Source: a virus. From it: 24,704 bases of DNA. Every line of letters begins with the position of its first letter. Positions within the stretch are counted from its first letter, which is position 1. This document shows positions 2 through 23,523 of this stretch, in pieces. The position numbers and the translations under genes are program-made. The DNA lies in the IMG/VR virus record IMGVR_UViG_3300042303_000715, positions 1 through 24,704 of that record, one strand, 5' to 3'. The notes beneath the pieces were generated by a model, which was given only the letters and a program-made list of their open reading frames with translations, did not search any database and had not been told where the DNA came from.

Positions 2-328
2 ATTAAACGCCAACTACAAGGTCAATCAAACTATATTGTAAATGGTGGTTTAAATTTCCACAAAGATAAAAACACACTAAATGTTACATACAACCGTGTT
101 GGAGATAGATTATCCGCCGTTGGTTTTCAAGGATATGCAGACATATTTGAAAATAGTAGAAATATTTTAGATGTAGTATACTTAAGAAAAATAAATAAAG
201 GCGAAATTAAGGTTGCAATAAACGATGTTTTCGCTCAATCATCAATATATTATCAAAAAACAAAAGGCGATTTAATTAAAACAAACAACGAACAAACAGT
301 CTCATTAACTATCAATTTTAATTTATGA
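2..328 (+). CDS. TonB-dependent receptor, C-terminal end (partial, 5' end outside window)
   Basis: An open frame enters from the left edge and ends at TGA 326-328, giving the last 108 residues of a larger protein. The sequence alternates hydrophobic and polar residues as in beta-strands (NYIVNGGLNF, TLNVTYNRVG, NILDVVYLRKI, GEIKVAINDVF) and ends in SLTINFNL, with an aromatic penultimate strand typical of an outer-membrane barrel. The pattern G-Q-S-x-Y-x-x-N-G-G-L and N-x-L-D-V-x-x-x-x-K resembles the final strands of Bacteroidota TonB-dependent receptors, which import siderophores, glycans or other nutrients using the TonB/ExbBD motor. The plug and most of the barrel lie outside the window, so the substrate cannot be named. 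The stop overlaps the start of the lipoprotein gene (ATGA), so the two are probably translated together. A receptor in a phage late region is unusual. Confidence 0.72.
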   Translation: MKRQLQGQSNYIVNGGLNFHKDKNTLNVTYNRVGDRLSAVGFQGYADIFENSRNILDVVYLRKINKGEIKVAINDVFAQSSIYYQKTKGDLIKTNNEQTVSLTINFNL

Positions 329-1527
329 AAAAATTATTAGCATTAGTACTTATTTTTGGTATTTTTAGTTGCACAAAAGAATTAGGAGGTAACACCGAAC
401 CCATCAATGTACCTTCAACTACAACATTGGTTGGTAACATTAACACAACAACCACATTAACATCAGACAAAGTTTGGACATTAAAAGGTTATGTATATGT
501 AACTGATGGTGCTAAACTTATTATCCAACCTGGCACTACTATTGTAAGTGATATTGCTGAAAAAGGTGCCCTGTGTATTGAAAGAGGAGCCCAAATTATA
601 GCTGAAGGTACAGCTGCAAAACCAATCATATTCACCTCAGGTAAAAACGCTGGCGAGAGGTCTCCTGGTGATTGGGGTGGTATTGTAATTTTAGGTCGTG
701 CTAAAACCAATAGATCATCAGAACCAACTATTGAAGGTGGTATTGGTAGAGCATTTGGTGGTATAAATGATGCTGATAATAGTGGAATATTAAAGTATGT
801 TCGTATTGAATATGCTGGTATAGCTGCTTTACCAAATTCAGAAATTAACGCTTTGACATTAGGTGCTGTAGGTAGTGGTACTGTAATTGAACATGTTCAA
901 ACAGTATATGCTAATGACGATGCATTTGAATTTTTCGGTGGTACTGTAAATGCTAAAAATTTATACGCATTCGCTACAGCCGATGATGATTATGATTTTG
1001 ATTTTGGCTACACCGGAACTATAACAAATAGTGTATCAAAGCGTGATCCTCAATTTGTAGATAACGGCGATGCAGGCAATGGTGTAGAATGCGACAATGA
1101 TGGTACAGGCTCACCTGCAACACCCTTTACACATCCTAAATTAATAGGTATGGTATTGGTTGGACCATTTGATGCTGCTTCATTAGCAAACCATAACTTA
1201 GGTTTGAGATGGAGAAGAGCCACTCAATTCACAATGACTAATTCTAAAATATTAGGATATCAAAAAGGTGGATTTAGTATTGAATCAAATGAAACAGCTC
1301 AAGCCTATAAAGATGGTATTAGCAAGTTTGAAAATAACGAAGTACAATCATTCGATCCACTATTAAACTTCAGATCTACATCTACAGCATTTACCGCAGT
1401 TAATATGAAAGAAAAAGCATTATCTCAAGGCAATAAAGAGGTAAAATATACTAAATTAGAAATGGAAGCCTTAGCAAGACCATCATGGATCAACGGATGG
1501 ACTCGCTTTCCACTTAAGGGACAATAA
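325..1527 (+). CDS. Surface lipoprotein with right-handed beta-helix-like body, partner of the TonB-dependent receptor
   Basis: This 400-residue protein has a lipoprotein signal peptide: MKKLLALVLIFGIFS then Cys16, with T-K-E after the Cys, similar to the Lys/acidic surface-export signal of Bacteroidota lipoproteins. The mature part has repeated short beta segments with Gly/Asn turns (GYVYVTDGAKLIIQPGTTIV, GAQIIAEGTAAKPIIFTSG, PGDWGGIVILG at about 114-124), typical of a beta-helix. A D-rich stretch (ADDDYDFDFGY, about 218-228) could bind metal. I recognise the family as a conserved Bacteroidota secreted protein usually encoded right after a TonB-dependent receptor; database names for it vary and its function is not established. 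No type IX secretion tail is visible. It overlaps the receptor stop by four bases and is followed by a hairpin and a TATTTATA motif. Its A+T-rich codons look like the phage genes around it, which suggests either a related host or long residence. Confidence 0.8.
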   Translation: MKKLLALVLIFGIFSCTKELGGNTEPINVPSTTTLVGNINTTTTLTSDKVWTLKGYVYVTDGAKLIIQPGTTIVSDIAEKGALCIERGAQIIAEGTAAKPIIFTSGKNAGERSPGDWGGIVILGRAKTNRSSEPTIEGGIGRAFGGINDADNSGILKYVRIEYAGIAALPNSEINALTLGAVGSGTVIEHVQTVYANDDAFEFFGGTVNAKNLYAFATADDDYDFDFGYTGTITNSVSKRDPQFVDNGDAGNGVECDNDGTGSPATPFTHPKLIGMVLVGPFDAASLANHNLGLRWRRATQFTMTNSKILGYQKGGFSIESNETAQAYKDGISKFENNEVQSFDPLLNFRSTSTAFTAVNMKEKALSQGNKEVKYTKLEMEALARPSWINGWTRFPLKGQ

Positions 1528-3434: not shown

Positions 3435-5618
3435 ATGTCAGGTTCAGCAGGTGGAAATAGAATTACTAGAGGATCAGTTGCTAAAACTGTTGATTCCTAT
3501 ATTAATAGAATACTAAAGAAATTCCCAGCTTTTAAAAGTGCTAAAGTTTCAGGCTCATATAATACAAGTACTAAAGAAGACTTTGGTGATATTGATTTGA
3601 TCGTTAATTTAGAAGCAACAGATAAAAAAAATATTAAATTAGAATTAGCTAAATTTTTATCTGACCTACCAGATAATGTTATAGTTCCTTTTAAAAGTGA
3701 AAAATATAAAGGTAAAAAATATCTAAACACAGGAGAAATAATCACTATATTACACCCTATAGAAGGCCAACCAGGTGAATATGTTCAAATAGACAATATA
3801 GTTTCTATAAGTGATGATGAAGCTGAATTTAAGAAAGAATTTTTAGATTATCCTGCTGAAATACAAGGATTATTATTAGGATTAGCTAAAGTAATATGTT
3901 TAGAGGAAGATCCTAAATCAATATTTGCTCGTATGGGTATTAAAAATATACCTGAACTTGAGGCAAATCAAGAATATGAATTTAATTTATCGAGCGCCGG
4001 ATTAACACTGCGTATCGTAACGTTAGATAATTTTAAAGAAGTTGATCGTACCGAAGTATGGAAAACTAGTAATTGGTCCAATATTAAGCAGCTATTTACT
4101 AATTACAAAATAGATGGTAGCTTCGAGGATCTATTAAATGATATATCATCTAAGGTAAAAAACCCACGCTCAAAAAATCGCATTAAAGGCATTTTTAATT
4201 CGATGGTATCTATTAAAAGTGGTGAAGTAGGTACACCTAAGGGCGATAATAAACAAAAATCATTAGATAAAGTGAATAATACATTAAGCGAAACAAATTT
4301 AGGCAGATACCTTGTATCATTACTATTAGAACAAGACCAACCAACAATAGCATTATTCCCAGGCAAATTTAAACCACCACATAAAGGTCATTTTAGTGTA
4401 GTAAAACAACTACTTAACAAGGCAGATCAAGTAGTGGTATTAATTTCACCTAAAATACATGATGGTATTTCACCTGATGAAAGTGTTGCTGCTTGGAAAT
4501 TATATAAAGACCAATTAGTAGACGGTGATAAAGTTGAATTAAGAGTATCAGCTGTTACCCCTGTTAGAGATGTATATGATTTTGTAGAAAATAATCCTGA
4601 ATTAACAGTATATGCTGCTTACGGTAAAGGTGAAGAGAGTAGGTATAAAAATTTAAGTAAGTTTCCAAACGCAAAAATATTTGATGCTGGTAATTTTGGT
4701 GGTTTAAATGCTACTGATCTTAGACAAGCTATACGCGATGGCAATGAGGAAGAAATTAAAAAATTCTTACCTGATGGGGTTGAAGTAGCTGATTTTCTAC
4801 TAGCAATGGGTAAAAAGGCTAAAGAAGAACCTAAACCCGAACCACAGCCTGAACCACAACCTGCAGTACCACCTACAGCTCCAATAGCTGAAAGAAAATA
4901 TCAGAATCAAGACGATATGTTTGCTGATTATGTCTTATCTAGAGAGGCAGATGTTGAAGATACAGCTCAAGTATTTAATATACCTATCCCAGATGTAAGA
5001 TATGCATTTACAGTAGGTAACATGGTAATATTATCTGATGATATGTGGGATAAATTAGAAAATAAAAATCATGAAGATGCTGATGGTGAAATCAGTGGTC
5101 CTCCTATGATTTTAAATTATGATAAAGACAGATATTATTTAACATACGGTAGTCGTATATTAGCTGATTATAAAAAATTAGGTAAAACACCCAATGTGTT
5201 AATGGGTGTTTTAGATTTAGAAGGTCCTAAACCCTGGCCTTTAAAAGAAGGTAAACTAAACGAAAGCGAAACCGCTACTATAGGTGAATTTGTAAAGTAT
5301 GCGATTAAAAACTTGGAAATACAAAAACCTCCACGTAACTTAACCTTCTCATACGATAATGCGGCTGCTAAAGAGAAACGTAGTTTTGGTTATTTTGATC
5401 CGAATGCTAATAAAATATGGGTGTATTGCGGAAATAGAAACATGGCTGATATATTAAGAACACTAGCACATGAATTAGTACACCGTAAGCAAGACGAAGA
5501 CGGACGTATTAATTACGAAAGTGGAAAAACAGGAAGTGATATAGAAAACGAAGCAAACGCTAAAGCAGGAATCTTATTAAGAGATTTCGGCAAACAACAT
5601 AAAGAAATATACCAATAA
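3435..5618 (+). CDS. Three-part fusion: nucleotidyltransferase, cytidylyltransferase-like domain, HExxH zinc metallopeptidase
   Basis: This is a 727-residue multidomain protein. Residues 1-280 are a nucleotidyltransferase: Gly40-Ser41, D-F-G-D52-I-D54-L, and probably Asp120 in YVQID. Residues 303-445 are a nucleotidyltransferase of the HxGH class: IALFPGKFKPPH316-K-G-H319, with GGLNATDLRQAI (422-433) in the place of the usual S-x-T-x-x-R motif. A Pro/Glu-rich linker (464-475) leads to a region of unknown fold (490-600). The C-terminus is a zinc peptidase: H679-E680-L-V-H683, with D-I-E-N-E (702-706) supplying a likely third ligand, as in gluzincin/ImmA-like proteins. It lacks an N-terminal leader, but L-L-E (297-299) and L-N-E (608-610) fall exactly between domains and look like prohead-protease sites, so it may be cut into separate enzymes. 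The family is known to me from marine phages; the biological role is unknown. Confidence 0.78.
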   Translation: MSGSAGGNRITRGSVAKTVDSYINRILKKFPAFKSAKVSGSYNTSTKEDFGDIDLIVNLEATDKKNIKLELAKFLSDLPDNVIVPFKSEKYKGKKYLNTGEIITILHPIEGQPGEYVQIDNIVSISDDEAEFKKEFLDYPAEIQGLLLGLAKVICLEEDPKSIFARMGIKNIPELEANQEYEFNLSSAGLTLRIVTLDNFKEVDRTEVWKTSNWSNIKQLFTNYKIDGSFEDLLNDISSKVKNPRSKNRIKGIFNSMVSIKSGEVGTPKGDNKQKSLDKVNNTLSETNLGRYLVSLLLEQDQPTIALFPGKFKPPHKGHFSVVKQLLNKADQVVVLISPKIHDGISPDESVAAWKLYKDQLVDGDKVELRVSAVTPVRDVYDFVENNPELTVYAAYGKGEESRYKNLSKFPNAKIFDAGNFGGLNATDLRQAIRDGNEEEIKKFLPDGVEVADFLLAMGKKAKEEPKPEPQPEPQPAVPPTAPIAERKYQNQDDMFADYVLSREADVEDTAQVFNIPIPDVRYAFTVGNMVILSDDMWDKLENKNHEDADGEISGPPMILNYDKDRYYLTYGSRILADYKKLGKTPNVLMGVLDLEGPKPWPLKEGKLNESETATIGEFVKYAIKNLEIQKPPRNLTFSYDNAAAKEKRSFGYFDPNANKIWVYCGNRNMADILRTLAHELVHRKQDEDGRINYESGKTGSDIENEANAKAGILLRDFGKQHKEIYQ

Positions 5619-6779: not shown

Positions 6780-7271
6780 ATGATTAAATTATTAGATATA
6801 TTAAATGAAGATATTATAGGTGGTGAAATTGAATGTGGAAAGTGTGGATGGAAATGGAAATTAGCAGATGGAGGACAAGAACCTTATATTTGCCATAAAT
6901 GTGATTACGATAATAGTGATCAAATAGAAGAATACGACGTTGAAAATGCTGATGATATAAGAGAATTTGTTGAATTTATGGAATCATATCAACAAGAACT
7001 TAATGAGGCCGATTGTGATTGTTTACTTGAAGCTAAATATCAAGGTCGTACTGTACCATTAGGTAAACCAATGCGTGGTGACAGTAAAAAATTTAAAGTA
7101 TATGTTAAAAATCCTAAAACAGGTAAAGTTGTAAAAGTAAACTTTGGTGCTAAGGGAATGAACATCAAGAAAAATAATCCTGTAAGACGTAAAGCATTCA
7201 GGGCAAGACATAATTGTGCTAACCCAGGACCACGTACTAAAGCTAGATACTGGTCTTGTAGAAAATGGTAA
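6780..7271 (+). CDS. Zinc-ribbon plus basic Arg/Lys-rich domain, with capsid-targeting-like leader
   Basis: This 163-residue protein begins MIKLLDILNE|DI, the clearest copy of the shared leader. A zinc ribbon follows: C19-G-K-C22 and C38-H-K-C41, with G-W-K-W-K-L-A-D-G-G between. After an acidic stretch (about 48-75), residues 90-163 form a basic domain: FKVYVKNPKTGKVVKVNFGA, then R-R-K-A-F-R-A-R-H-N-C and Y-W-S-C-R-K-W at the end. I recognise this C-terminal domain as a widespread protein of aquatic T4-like phages with no assigned function; the net positive charge suits contact with packaged DNA. Internal L-L-E (around 82) precedes the basic domain and could be another cleavage site. The start is fixed by the leader and the short gap after the previous stop. 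Confidence 0.75.
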   Translation: MIKLLDILNEDIIGGEIECGKCGWKWKLADGGQEPYICHKCDYDNSDQIEEYDVENADDIREFVEFMESYQQELNEADCDCLLEAKYQGRTVPLGKPMRGDSKKFKVYVKNPKTGKVVKVNFGAKGMNIKKNNPVRRKAFRARHNCANPGPRTKARYWSCRKW

Positions 7272-7272
7272 T

Positions 7273-7686
7273 ATGATAAAACTAACTGAAATATTAGACG
7301 AAATATTATTTGAAAAAAAGCTATGCCCTAAAGGTAGAGCTTATTATAATCGTCGTAAAGCTGCTGGTGAAAAACCATCAGCCTATCTTTCTGGTCGTGC
7401 TGTTAAAGTGTGTAAAGGATTAATGGAAGAAGATGATTTAGACATGCATGAATCACTTCGTGATTGGTTTAAAAAAGAAGATTGGGTTCGTATTGATACA
7501 GCAGGTAATATAACTGGTCCTTGTGGTACAATGAAAAAAGGTAATAAAACAACTCGTTGTTTGCCTCGTGCTAAAGCAAATAGTTTAACTAAAGCTGAAC
7601 GCGCTGCTACATCAAAGAAAAAAGCAGCATCAGATAAACAATTTGTACCTAATACTAAAAAAGCAAAAGTAAAATTGAATAAATAA
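7273..7686 (+). CDS. Small basic phage protein with capsid-targeting-like leader
   Basis: The start is set at ATG 7273, not at the in-frame upstream ATG at 7216, because 7216 lies deep inside the previous gene and the protein from 7273 opens with MIKLTEILDE|IL, the shared leader. It has 137 residues. Residues 15-50 carry KKLCPKGRAYYNRRKAAGEK and P-S-A-Y-L-S-G-R-A-V-K-V-C-K-G; residues 60-115 carry S-L-R-D-W-F-K-K-E-D-W-V and C-G-T-M-K-K. The tail is Lys-rich. Both blocks are conserved small domains I have seen in marine phage proteins, without known function. High basic charge suggests nucleic-acid contact within the head. Stop TAA overlaps the next ATG (TAATG). Confidence 0.7.
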   Translation: MIKLTEILDEILFEKKLCPKGRAYYNRRKAAGEKPSAYLSGRAVKVCKGLMEEDDLDMHESLRDWFKKEDWVRIDTAGNITGPCGTMKKGNKTTRCLPRAKANSLTKAERAATSKKKAASDKQFVPNTKKAKVKLNK

Positions 7687-10307
7687 TGAGATCAATAGAT
7701 AAATTCATATTACACGTTGTTCATAATTTATTTCCTTTAAACGAATATAAGGAAGGGGAAATAAATAGATTAATGGCTCAATTTAAAGCCGAAGCCGAAG
7801 ATTTAAATATTCAGGTTAGTGATGAGCAACTTAAAAAATATATTGAGCGTTTTGATGTTTTAAAGAATTCACCTAAAGTAACAGATAAAGATTTACGTAA
7901 ATATTCTTTATCTAAATTAATTAAAATAGTTACAGCATCTCCAGGAGCTGAAGTAGATAATGAAGATGAAGAAGATAGTACTCCCGATATGGTATATCGT
8001 GAAGGTGATATTACTATATGGAATGGTGCTAAACAAGGTAATTGTATTACCTATGGAGCTAATCAACCAATGCAAGGGGGTAGTAGATGGTGTATTACTC
8101 AACCTGGAGGAAGCTATTTTGGAAGATATAGATATGGATCTGACTATAGGTATCCAACATTTTATTTAGCTAAAAATGATGCCTTACCCGATAGTGATAA
8201 ATTAAGTTTTGTTGCATTGCAAGTATTAGATAATGGTGAATATAAATTCACCAATAGAGCTAATAACCCGGGAATGGAAGGTCCATTTAGTTGGGAAGAA
8301 TTAAATAGACGTATTCCTTGGTTAAGTAGTATTCCTAATTTAAAAAACATTTTAAAATATATTCCTTTTTCTAAGTCTGAAAAAGAAAGTGAAGTTTTTA
8401 AAAACAATCCTATTAGTATTAAACAATGGATAAAAGAACCATTTAGTACTAAAAAACAATATTTACTAATTAGAGCAGGAACATCTCAATTATTTAGTGA
8501 TATATCTAATGATCTTTTTATTTCAAAATATCTCCCTCAATATCCACAGATTGCTACAGTAATAGCAGGAACTACTGGAATTATTGATATTGAGCGCTTA
8601 ATACCCCAGTTAGATAAATTTTCAAAACAAGATCAAGTATCTATTGCTAAACAAATAAGAAATAAATTTAAATTAAGTATCTTTAACCAAGATATACCCT
8701 TTGATCTTAAAAAATTCCTTGTAAAGACAGATAAAATTGGCCTTGAGTCAAATCAAAGAATATATGTAACTAAAGATAATCAATCTATTGTTTTATTAAC
8801 ATTAGGAGATAATATTAAAGTAGGATTGTATACTGAAGATGATGAATATCCTAATATTAAATTAAATAAACGCACTGCAAAATATCTACTTGAATATCCT
8901 GAATTAGATAAAATACCATTTAAAATTCTAATCGACCTAGTCTCAGAAGACGTTATCGATAAAACTTTAGTTGACAAAGTAATTGAAAATGCTAAAAACG
9001 ACCCTAACTCAGCTATTATAGTTAAAGATATAGATGGTACTGATATATTATTAGATTCAAATGCATTTGTATCATATAAAATTGAAAATGGAAAAATAAC
9101 TAAAATACCATTTAATAGTGAAGAGGTACAACAAGTATTTAATGATTCAAAAGATAATGAAGGACTTCAAACCAATGTTATAGGAATGTTAGATCAACAA
9201 TCCATTCCTGAAACAGTAGATAGAGATGGATTATTATCTGTTGTAAAAGCTATACCATACAGTAAAAGAATAACACCTGATGGTCGTATAGTAATGGTAA
9301 CAGACGATCCTAACATTTCTATGTTTAGTTTGGATCCAAACAGTATAAATAATTTAAGACCTAGCTATATATGGGGTGATGTAAATGGTAACTGGAGAAG
9401 AAGAGGTACGGGTGACTGGATAGATAGTATACCAGCATGGCAATCATATTTTACATATTTAAGAAGTATAAATAGAAGTTATAACGGTAATGAATTACAA
9501 AGAATACTAAAAACAGACGGTGGTAGAAGAGCTATAGCTGCTAAAAAAGCATTTATTAGAGCTAATCCTCCAATAACAGATGATAGCATATATCGTCCTG
9601 TAATGAATGGAGATACTGCTTTACTTATTAATTTACAAGATCCAAGAAGTAGCTTTAAAGTATCTGATTCAACAGGTAAATTAAATCAAGCAAATGTACC
9701 ATTAGCATTAGCAAGGCAATTAACAGGACAAGGCCAACCAGCTGCTGGCCAAGTAGCAGCTCAAGCAGGTGGTGTTGCACGAAGAGGTAGACCTGCAGGT
9801 CAACCAAATGCTCCTCAACCAGCAGCACCTGCCGCTGCCGGTAATACAAATGTAGGAGCATATATGCAAGCAGCAGGAATAATGAATGGATTTATGGATT
9901 TACCTCGTACTATTCTTCGTAAATTAAATGTTAATAATGCTAGGGGTGTTTCTACAGCAAATAATAGAGGAGCGTCTCGTCGTCAAAACATATTAGGGAA
10001 TGCTGGTCGAGTTATAAGCTCAGTAGAAGTAGGATCTAGCACAATATACCTTATACGTCTACCAAATGGAAGCTCAGTTGCTTCAGTTGTAGTACAGCCA
10101 GGCAATGGCCATTATATCATTACTCCTCAATCAGCATATCAACTAGACTCCCCATCTCAGCTATTATCTGCATTACAACAACGCAATTTGGCAGAGATCC
10201 ATCAGTATCTTGTAAATGAGTACATGGAGCGCAATCCTGAACAATTAACTGAATTTAAAGAATTATTACGTAAACATATAAACGAAAAGAAAAATGCAAA
10301 TAAATAA
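7686..10307 (+). CDS. Large putative virion protein with Cys/Trp/Tyr-rich domain
   Basis: This 873-residue protein begins with a hydrophobic segment, MRSIDKFILHVVHNLFPLNE|YKEG, ending L-N-E as in the other leaders. A conserved-looking domain spans about 103-212: VYREGDITIWNGAKQGNC120, R-W-C136-I-T, F-G-R-Y-R-Y, T-F-Y-L-A, then K-F-T-N-R-A-N-N and W-E-E-L close to a P-W-L. I remember this arrangement from large virion proteins of several phages, but not its function. The middle (220-650) has no recognisable motif. A Gln/Ala/Gly/Pro-rich linker covers about 680-720, and the C-terminus (about 725-873) is alpha/beta with E-x-L-L-R-K-H near the end. It is possibly an ejected effector or inner head protein. 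Neighbouring overlaps (1 and 14 bases) place it in the same unit. Confidence 0.66.
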   Translation: MRSIDKFILHVVHNLFPLNEYKEGEINRLMAQFKAEAEDLNIQVSDEQLKKYIERFDVLKNSPKVTDKDLRKYSLSKLIKIVTASPGAEVDNEDEEDSTPDMVYREGDITIWNGAKQGNCITYGANQPMQGGSRWCITQPGGSYFGRYRYGSDYRYPTFYLAKNDALPDSDKLSFVALQVLDNGEYKFTNRANNPGMEGPFSWEELNRRIPWLSSIPNLKNILKYIPFSKSEKESEVFKNNPISIKQWIKEPFSTKKQYLLIRAGTSQLFSDISNDLFISKYLPQYPQIATVIAGTTGIIDIERLIPQLDKFSKQDQVSIAKQIRNKFKLSIFNQDIPFDLKKFLVKTDKIGLESNQRIYVTKDNQSIVLLTLGDNIKVGLYTEDDEYPNIKLNKRTAKYLLEYPELDKIPFKILIDLVSEDVIDKTLVDKVIENAKNDPNSAIIVKDIDGTDILLDSNAFVSYKIENGKITKIPFNSEEVQQVFNDSKDNEGLQTNVIGMLDQQSIPETVDRDGLLSVVKAIPYSKRITPDGRIVMVTDDPNISMFSLDPNSINNLRPSYIWGDVNGNWRRRGTGDWIDSIPAWQSYFTYLRSINRSYNGNELQRILKTDGGRRAIAAKKAFIRANPPITDDSIYRPVMNGDTALLINLQDPRSSFKVSDSTGKLNQANVPLALARQLTGQGQPAAGQVAAQAGGVARRGRPAGQPNAPQPAAPAAAGNTNVGAYMQAAGIMNGFMDLPRTILRKLNVNNARGVSTANNRGASRRQNILGNAGRVISSVEVGSSTIYLIRLPNGSSVASVVVQPGNGHYIITPQSAYQLDSPSQLLSALQQRNLAEIHQYLVNEYMERNPEQLTEFKELLRKHINEKKNANK

Positions 10308-22138: not shown

Positions 22139-22993
22139 ATGAAAATAAAACATTCAAAGTTTAAAAACACAGGTATATTATTCGAACTATTAGTTCGTCA
22201 AATAGCATCTGATACTGTATCTAATAAAGATTCGGCCGCTATTGGAATAGTTAGAAAATACTTTAACAAATCTGAATTAGCTAAAGAATATAAATTATAC
22301 CAAGCGTTAATTACACCTAAATCTCTTAGCGAAGCTAAAGCCGAAACGTTTATCAATTCAACGTTAGAGGCTTCTTTGCGTTTGAATAAAACCGCTTTAC
22401 GCAAGGAGAAATACAACATAATTAAAGAAATTCGTGATCATTATGATATTGAGGAATTCTTTAAGGCAAAAATTAACCATTACAAACAATATGCTGCTGC
22501 CTTTAATTTAATTGAAGCACACAATTCATTAGAATTTACTGAACCACAGCATATTATTGATAATAAGATTACCTTATTAGAACATATTACACGTAAAGAA
22601 ATTGACAAGGAAAGTGTAAAGGATCGTGTAATGGAAGAATTTACTAATATGGATAAAGGATCTCGCATATTAGCTTATCGTATGTTGTTGGAGAAATTTA
22701 ACAGCAAATATGCTACATTATCAGATCGCCAAAAATTAATATTAAAAGAATTCATTAACAATATCTCTAATACAACTAAGTTGAGAGATTTTGTTAATAA
22801 AAATTTTACAATAATTAATGAACAAATTACCAAAATTATACCTACAGTAGCTGATAAAACAACTCAGATTAAATTAGCTGAGGTAATTACATTATTACAT
22901 CCATTAGATAAAACACAAAATGTAAAAGATGAAAACATTATTTCTCTTTTACAATATTATCAATTAATTGAAGAATTAAAAGCTGTTAAATAG
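22139..22993 (+). CDS. Conserved protein downstream of portal, unknown function
   Basis: This 284-residue helical, Lys-rich protein opens MKIKHSKFKNTGILFELLVR. That N-terminus and R-K-Y-F-N-K-S-E-L-A-K-E-Y-K-L-Y (45-60) are familiar to me from T4-like aquatic phages, where the gene also follows the portal. Later S-R-I-L-A-Y-R-M-L-L-E-K-F-N-S-K-Y (176-192) and helical repeats suggest an all-alpha fold. No catalytic motif, signal peptide or leader was found. Position suggests a part in prohead assembly or portal completion. Its TAG shares a base with the GTG start of the next gene. Confidence 0.68.
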   Translation: MKIKHSKFKNTGILFELLVRQIASDTVSNKDSAAIGIVRKYFNKSELAKEYKLYQALITPKSLSEAKAETFINSTLEASLRLNKTALRKEKYNIIKEIRDHYDIEEFFKAKINHYKQYAAAFNLIEAHNSLEFTEPQHIIDNKITLLEHITRKEIDKESVKDRVMEEFTNMDKGSRILAYRMLLEKFNSKYATLSDRQKLILKEFINNISNTTKLRDFVNKNFTIINEQITKIIPTVADKTTQIKLAEVITLLHPLDKTQNVKDENIISLLQYYQLIEELKAVK

Positions 22994-23523
22994 TGGATAT
23001 CAAAGAATATATTAAATCACTTGTATACGAGATGTTAGACGAAATGTCTGTTTCTGGAGATGCAGGTGGATATTTAACTCCTCAAGCATTTGCCAAAAAA
23101 GGACAAGGTCTAAATGCAGCTACTAAACAAGCACAAAGATCAGGATGGAAATTAGCAGGTGGAATGCCTAAAAATTCCAAAGTACTTGATTATAAAGAAT
23201 TATGGAAAGGTAAAAAATCCGCTATGAACGAAACATTACTACAAATTATCGAGCAAGAATTACTTAACGAAGTAACATACAATAAATTTAAAAACGATGT
23301 AAAATTTCGTACTAAAAACGAACAATTACATAAAGCAATTCGTGAAGTAAAACGTAAATTACAAGAAATTGATCGTATTGTAGAATATACATCTCGTATG
23401 AAGCAAGAATTAAGTGAAGGTGAGGAAGGTATAAAATATTGGAAAGCAACCCAAAATAACGTTTCCAAAATATCAGAAATGGTAAACCATCTTAACAATA
23501 AAATTAAAAATCTCCAGCAGTAA
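22993..23523 (+). CDS. Helical head-region protein with leader and internal LxE sites
   Basis: The start is GTG 22993 (TAGTG overlap with the previous stop). The 176-residue protein opens MDIKEYIKSLVYEMLDE|MS, an IREAI-type amphipathic leader with L15-D-E17. Residues 20-70 include Y-L-T-P-Q-A-F-A-K-K-G-Q-G and N-A-A-T-K-Q-A-Q-R-S-G-W-K-L-A. A second leader-like stretch, M-N-E-T-L-L-Q-I-I-E-Q-E-L-L-N-E|V (78-93), precedes a coiled-coil C-terminus. Two leader-like units in one chain suggest it may be processed into two pieces. No enzyme motif was recognised. Confidence 0.66.
   Translation: MDIKEYIKSLVYEMLDEMSVSGDAGGYLTPQAFAKKGQGLNAATKQAQRSGWKLAGGMPKNSKVLDYKELWKGKKSAMNETLLQIIEQELLNEVTYNKFKNDVKFRTKNEQLHKAIREVKRKLQEIDRIVEYTSRMKQELSEGEEGIKYWKATQNNVSKISEMVNHLNNKIKNLQQ

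Follow-up and report, generated by a model that had tools for sequence, protein, structure and literature searches.

A four-domain phage protein with an internal leader is a candidate head-cargo polyprotein

The internal head proteins of phage T4, IPI-III and Alt, are packaged cargo that carry a short leader ending in L/I-x-E. These capsid-targeting leaders, about 10 residues long, are N-terminal, one per protein. Cleavage by the T4 prohead protease gp21 follows L/I-X-E, and for IPIII to be packaged its first 10 residues are enough (PMC9026906). In the giant phages phiKZ and SPN3US, a prohead protease also cuts head proteins, some of them ejected, after the E of a short motif, and some propeptides are cut more than once (PMC10052503). 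The products there are one mature protein and a discarded propeptide, unlike the multi-enzyme chain proposed below. The word 'polyprotein' is absent from the two SPN3US papers searched by word, PMC10052503 included, and a literature search, with most subscription journals outside its reach, found no paper on phage head-cargo polyproteins. The nearest cultured relative of the gene described here, in the phage collection, is gp088 of Flavobacterium phage immuto, which aligns to 68% of the chain at 45% identity. Annotated as an NMN adenylyltransferase (NadR), gp088 likewise joins a nucleotidyltransferase, an NMNAT-like domain and an HExxH domain, has L-A-E at joint 1, and lies upstream of the genes for the terminase, a gp20-like portal, the prohead protease and gp23. 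Here, we analysed a window of 24,704 bases, which is the whole of one IMG/VR virus record, and in it a chain that resembles T4 cargo in having a short leader ending in L/I-x-E, with enzymes as the likely cargo. In the chain, however, the leader is internal, four domains are joined, and motifs are found at every joint. Since the leader lies at residues 287-299 and not at the N-terminus, we describe the chain as working like T4 cargo, not as an ordinary member of that group.

The gene (3435-5618; this and all features below are on the plus strand) is an intact open reading frame of 727 amino acids, with homologs in relatives, and its chain has four domains. The chain starts with MSGSAGGNRITR, and the first domain has no N-terminal leader of its own. 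This domain, residues 1-286 (3435-4292), is by Pfam and alignment a predicted Pol-beta-like nucleotidyltransferase, in which G40-S41, D52-x-D54 and the third acid, D120, are invariant among seven homologs. The second domain, residues 300-461 (4332-4817), is predicted to be an NMNAT/NadD/CoaD-like nucleotidylyltransferase. It contains the HKGH motif at 316-319, and Pfam CTP_transf_like matches it above the cut-off at 307-338. In a Foldseek search against the PDB the NMNAT/NadD/CoaD fold ranks first, with structures of NadD, NadM and CoaD mixed at the top. The HxGH motif and the fold are thus common to these enzymes and to the predicted domain, which here is embedded between other domains. As phage NAD reconstitution pathways are known, NAD metabolism is a natural guess for its role. 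The third domain, residues 487-602 (4893-5240), is small, has no Pfam name, and was delimited from homologs and an AlphaFold2 model. The fourth, residues 611-727 (5265-5615), is by Pfam and alignment a predicted zincin-like metallopeptidase with HELVH at 679-683. Residues H679, E680, H683, E704 and E706 are invariant in 16 sequences, and either E704 or E706 may be the downstream ligand. The Pfam matches to Polbeta and to the metallopeptidase family DUF6782 are both below the cut-off.

The AlphaFold2 model of the chain is modest (mean pLDDT 70, from 16 sequences). Its low-confidence stretches correspond to the three joints, at 259-277, 282-284, 293-302, 462-493 and 596-605, and further ones fall within the nucleotidyltransferase. 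A sequence-only reading had recognised three enzyme classes in this chain and proposed structure prediction as a check. Its GS/DxD, HKGH and HELVH motifs, as well as LLE at 297-299 and LNE at 608-610, are all where it placed them. The three enzyme-like domains are present, the NMNAT fold and the linker character of the joints agree with it, and the domain at about 487-602 had escaped it.

Joint 1 comprises a 13-residue peptide, TNLGRYLVSLLLE, at residues 287-299 (4293-4331), bounded by the motifs L-S-E (284-286; 4284-4292), in which the middle residue is S, T or N in aligned close relatives, and L-L-E (297-299; 4323-4331), assigned by motif reading and alignment. In seven IMG/VR relatives (L025, L026, L027, L029, L030, L031 and L033), the part that includes the NMNAT-like and peptidase domains is a separate gene. 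These split genes begin with MNLGQYIAQQLLE/AEDQSTIALFPGAFKPPHKGH or a close variant, where a slash, here and below, marks the end of a leader or motif. Their general form is MNLG[QK]xxxxx[LI]LE followed by the NMNAT-like domain. The counterpart in the window, NLGRYLVSLLLE/QDQPTIALFPGKFKPPHKGH, is internal and collinear with these starts, and the fused forms have ACA or ACT at the position of the start ATG of the split relatives. A short leader ending in L/I-x-E is therefore internal in the window and N-terminal in the split relatives, and the earlier proposal that the stretch before residue 299 is an internal copy of the leaders is borne out. In L032, the leader stands before a different cassette, and in L028, a related leader, MTHKELGLFLAKALLE, precedes domain 3. 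The peptidase also occurs alone, as a 124-amino acid gene of cyanophage B23 with the leader MNYKQFLRE/S. Stand-alone versions with their own leaders, which the sequence-only reading had suggested looking for, thus exist for the NMNAT-like domain, domain 3, the peptidase and an extra cassette.

When six fused forms are compared, codon differences in the internal leader are synonymous in 93 cases and nonsynonymous in 17, and the linker right after it has 15 and 31, respectively; these are pairwise sums and hence non-independent. By this codon pattern, the internal leader of the fused forms is under purifying selection. Among 74 loci with both domains, [LIV]-x-E was sought up to 26 residues from the NMNAT strand, and it is found at joint 1 in all 22 distinct junction types, compared with 14.7 +/- 2.1 in shuffles. 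Two of the 22 have LEGK at the site of the first motif (286). This motif ends a predicted helix, and structure may explain its retention.

The motif by itself carries little information. The chain has 8 L/I-x-E sites and shuffled chains have 8.6, a chance level for which counting was rejected as evidence of cut sites. A position matrix made from 90 leaders of other genes, mostly of the MIKLLDILKE type, does not single out residue 299, and in immuto a score as high is reached by 39% of 615 internal motif sites. The case made by the sequence-only reading therefore needed other evidence. What is beyond chance in these sequence comparisons is the homology to true N-terminal leaders, the conservation of the joints, and the exchange of cassettes at the joints.

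Joint 2 has I-A-E at 484-486 (4884-4892), in the proline-rich low-confidence linker 462-493, and 11 of the 12 aligned homologs retain E486. Joint 3 has, by alignment, L-K-E at 603-605 (5241-5249), where the extra cassettes of relatives enter, and L-N-E at 608-610 (5256-5264). E605 is invariant in 16 sequences and is the best conserved of all, within the motifs LKE, VTE, INE, LFE, LME, ISE and LNE, while residues 608-610 are LNE, LTE or LDE in 14 of the 16. In all three joints, [LIV]-x-E is retained inside predicted linkers while its middle residue varies. The earlier reading, which had put protease-like sites at the domain borders and would have been undone by L-x-E sites that are not conserved in relatives, stands on both counts, but it had missed LSE at 284-286, IAE at 484-486 and LKE at 603-605. 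At these joints, whole domains are inserted, doubled or lost among relatives. The chains have 601 amino acids in L004, 727 in the window, 965 in L008, 1125 in L001 and L002, and 1358 in L005, in which the same cassette type is present twice. The cassettes of the longer relatives are bounded by such motifs, as in LKE/YS... and LMKE/GL....

An extra C-terminal cassette follows the peptidase in L028 (5352-6056) and L035 (5379-6023), and in L028 it is preceded by LLKE/G. An assignment of this cassette as an ADP-ribosyltransferase, from a YRG...SWSTN-like pattern seen by eye, was rejected, as Pfam, PHROG and confident fold matches gave it no support.

Leaders of this kind are found on other genes of the window. 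By sequence comparison, a neighbour gene has the leader MIKLLNLAKQILKE before GGNVF (1591-1632); its leaders are variable among relatives and are followed by an invariant E/GGNVF. A neighbouring P-loop kinase, identified by translation and Pfam, starts with MIKLLDILKE (2562-2591). The same 10-residue type is seen in the translation of an unrelated zinc-ribbon-like protein, as MIKLLDILNE (6780-6809), and, from reading the sequence, on another unrelated protein, as MIKLTEILDE (7273-7302). The leader MRSIDKFILHVVHNLFPLNE (7686-7745) belongs to a protein whose start resembles, by eye, the LKE/YS... cassette of the longer relatives. Immuto genes with leader-like starts are densest at 100-131 kb, close to the head genes, with 24 of 35 genes against 34 of 154 (Fisher p = 3e-7).

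The S77 prohead protease and the gp23 capsid protein of T4 have counterparts in the clade of the window. Genes for both are present in 7/7 related records, six IMG/VR relatives and immuto, a count for relatives only, as the window record ends before these genes. The proteases of the clade have L/I-x-E close to their start (e.g. LTLSE/GK) and to their end (L[ASN]E/[SNG]K), and LVTE/A, or IVSE/A in immuto, is found in the capsid proteins. The motif therefore recurs in likely substrates of the protease. In one phage record, that of L037, two gp23-type capsid genes (L068 and L070) lie in tandem.

The immuto clade retains the fusion without the internal leader, and there the neighbour gene starts with M-GGNVF, also without a leader. 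Both leaders are absent in 23 of 74 loci, immuto included, both are present in 51, and none is mixed. On a tree of the loci, the leader state is a single change with full support. The 74/74 agreement therefore counts as one event, and reading it as 74 independent cases was rejected. It suggests that the internal leader and the leader of the neighbour gene travel together. Because both are absent in the immuto clade, the chain may be unpackaged there. Immuto gp088 (L012 20001-22724) also differs from the chain of the window in having a C-terminal extension, an extra cassette in which HEIEHLTH follows VMAE/GR as a second HExxH-like motif.

As a copy of a leader and motifs resembling T4-type cut sites are found at the joints, the chain probably enters the head and is cut. 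We consider it reasonably probable that it is a head-cargo polyprotein, which the prohead protease would cut into separate enzymes during prohead maturation. This is the interpretation of the sequence-only reading, and it is the best supported by the sequence comparisons and the analogy with T4. The chain would have arisen by in-frame fusion of a leaderless nucleotidyltransferase gene to a second gene, which encoded a capsid-targeting leader of its own followed by the NMNAT-like domain, the small domain and the peptidase. The leader, now internal, would carry the chain into the prohead core, although the known T4 leaders are N-terminal. The S77 protease would then cut after the [LIV]-x-E motifs at every joint, setting free the nucleotidyltransferase, the NMNAT-like enzyme, domain 3 and the peptidase, while the leader, cut at both sides, would be removed as a short peptide. 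The enzymes would remain in the head and reach the host together with the DNA. The homology, the selection on the leader, the exchange at the motifs, and the protease and gp23 genes of the relatives are read directly from the sequences. Packaging, cutting and injection are modelled on T4, and targeting, ejection and enzyme activity are likewise inferred.

The chain could also be packaged and stay uncut, the internal leader targeting one multi-domain enzyme in which the L-x-E motifs are tolerated linkers. Targeting alone would account for the purifying selection on the leader, and the chance-level motif count is in agreement with this. We regard it as rather unlikely, as targeting does not account for why E605 and E486 are retained at leaderless joints whose motifs vary in the middle residue, nor for why cassettes are exchanged at the same motifs. 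An ordinary cytoplasmic multi-domain enzyme, neither packaged nor cut, with the leader-like helix as a docking or folding element, is distinctly unlikely. It would fit the immuto clade, which keeps the fusion without the leader, and the NMNAT-like genes of other phages, which are known as NAD metabolism genes; however, leaders of this kind, likewise ending in L-x-E, are borne by many unrelated small proteins next to the head genes, and the module boundaries coincide with the leader. That the joints are cut by the HELVH domain itself is very improbable, even though the chain holds a zincin-like domain with an invariant HExxH and downstream E residues, as the joint motifs fit the rule of the S77 protease and the same motifs end the leaders of proteins that have no peptidase.

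If the proposed head-cargo polyprotein is real, a tailed phage packs several enzymes from one gene by means of an internal targeting signal and parts them inside the head, a polyprotein route for phage cargo that is undescribed in the literature found. The NMNAT-like enzyme would then arrive as infection begins, the stage at which NAD-based defences act. A leader together with an L-x-E joint could serve as a sequence rule to predict injected proteins among the unnamed genes of T4-like phages.

A second modular protein of the window is encoded by ORF 22993-23523. It has one leader, MDIKEYIKSLVYEMLDE/MSVSG, and a second, internal one, MNETLLQIIEQELLNE/VTYNKFK (leader at 23224-23271), which has Met at its start. 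In immuto, the first module of this protein stands alone (CDS 123355-123576, 73 amino acids), and in L096, L119, L140 and L147, further, variable N-terminal modules are placed in front, so that former leaders have become internal. By these comparisons, internal leaders point to a general habit beyond the peculiarity of one gene. A wider reading, in which enzyme cassettes bounded by capsid-targeting leaders and L-x-E sites form an exchange system in T4-like phages of Bacteroidota, are gained, doubled or lost within a single reading frame, and yield chains that the head protease cuts into injected enzymes, with this ORF and its longer relatives as the second case, is tentative, and we give it less than an even chance.

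Putative Bacteroidota outer-membrane proteins (TonB-dependent-receptor-like ORFs and a lipoprotein), recognised by eye only, lie directly upstream of the putative cargo genes, in the window (2-1527), L026 (3-3253), L029 (3-3286), L031 (310-3621) and L035 (1201-3738). In L051-L053, an NMNAT-like gene and a further domain are linked by FTKAWWKEIINEILLTE/GGAAGH, which is a different type of internal leader; this fusion in L051 has one phage match, which is weak.
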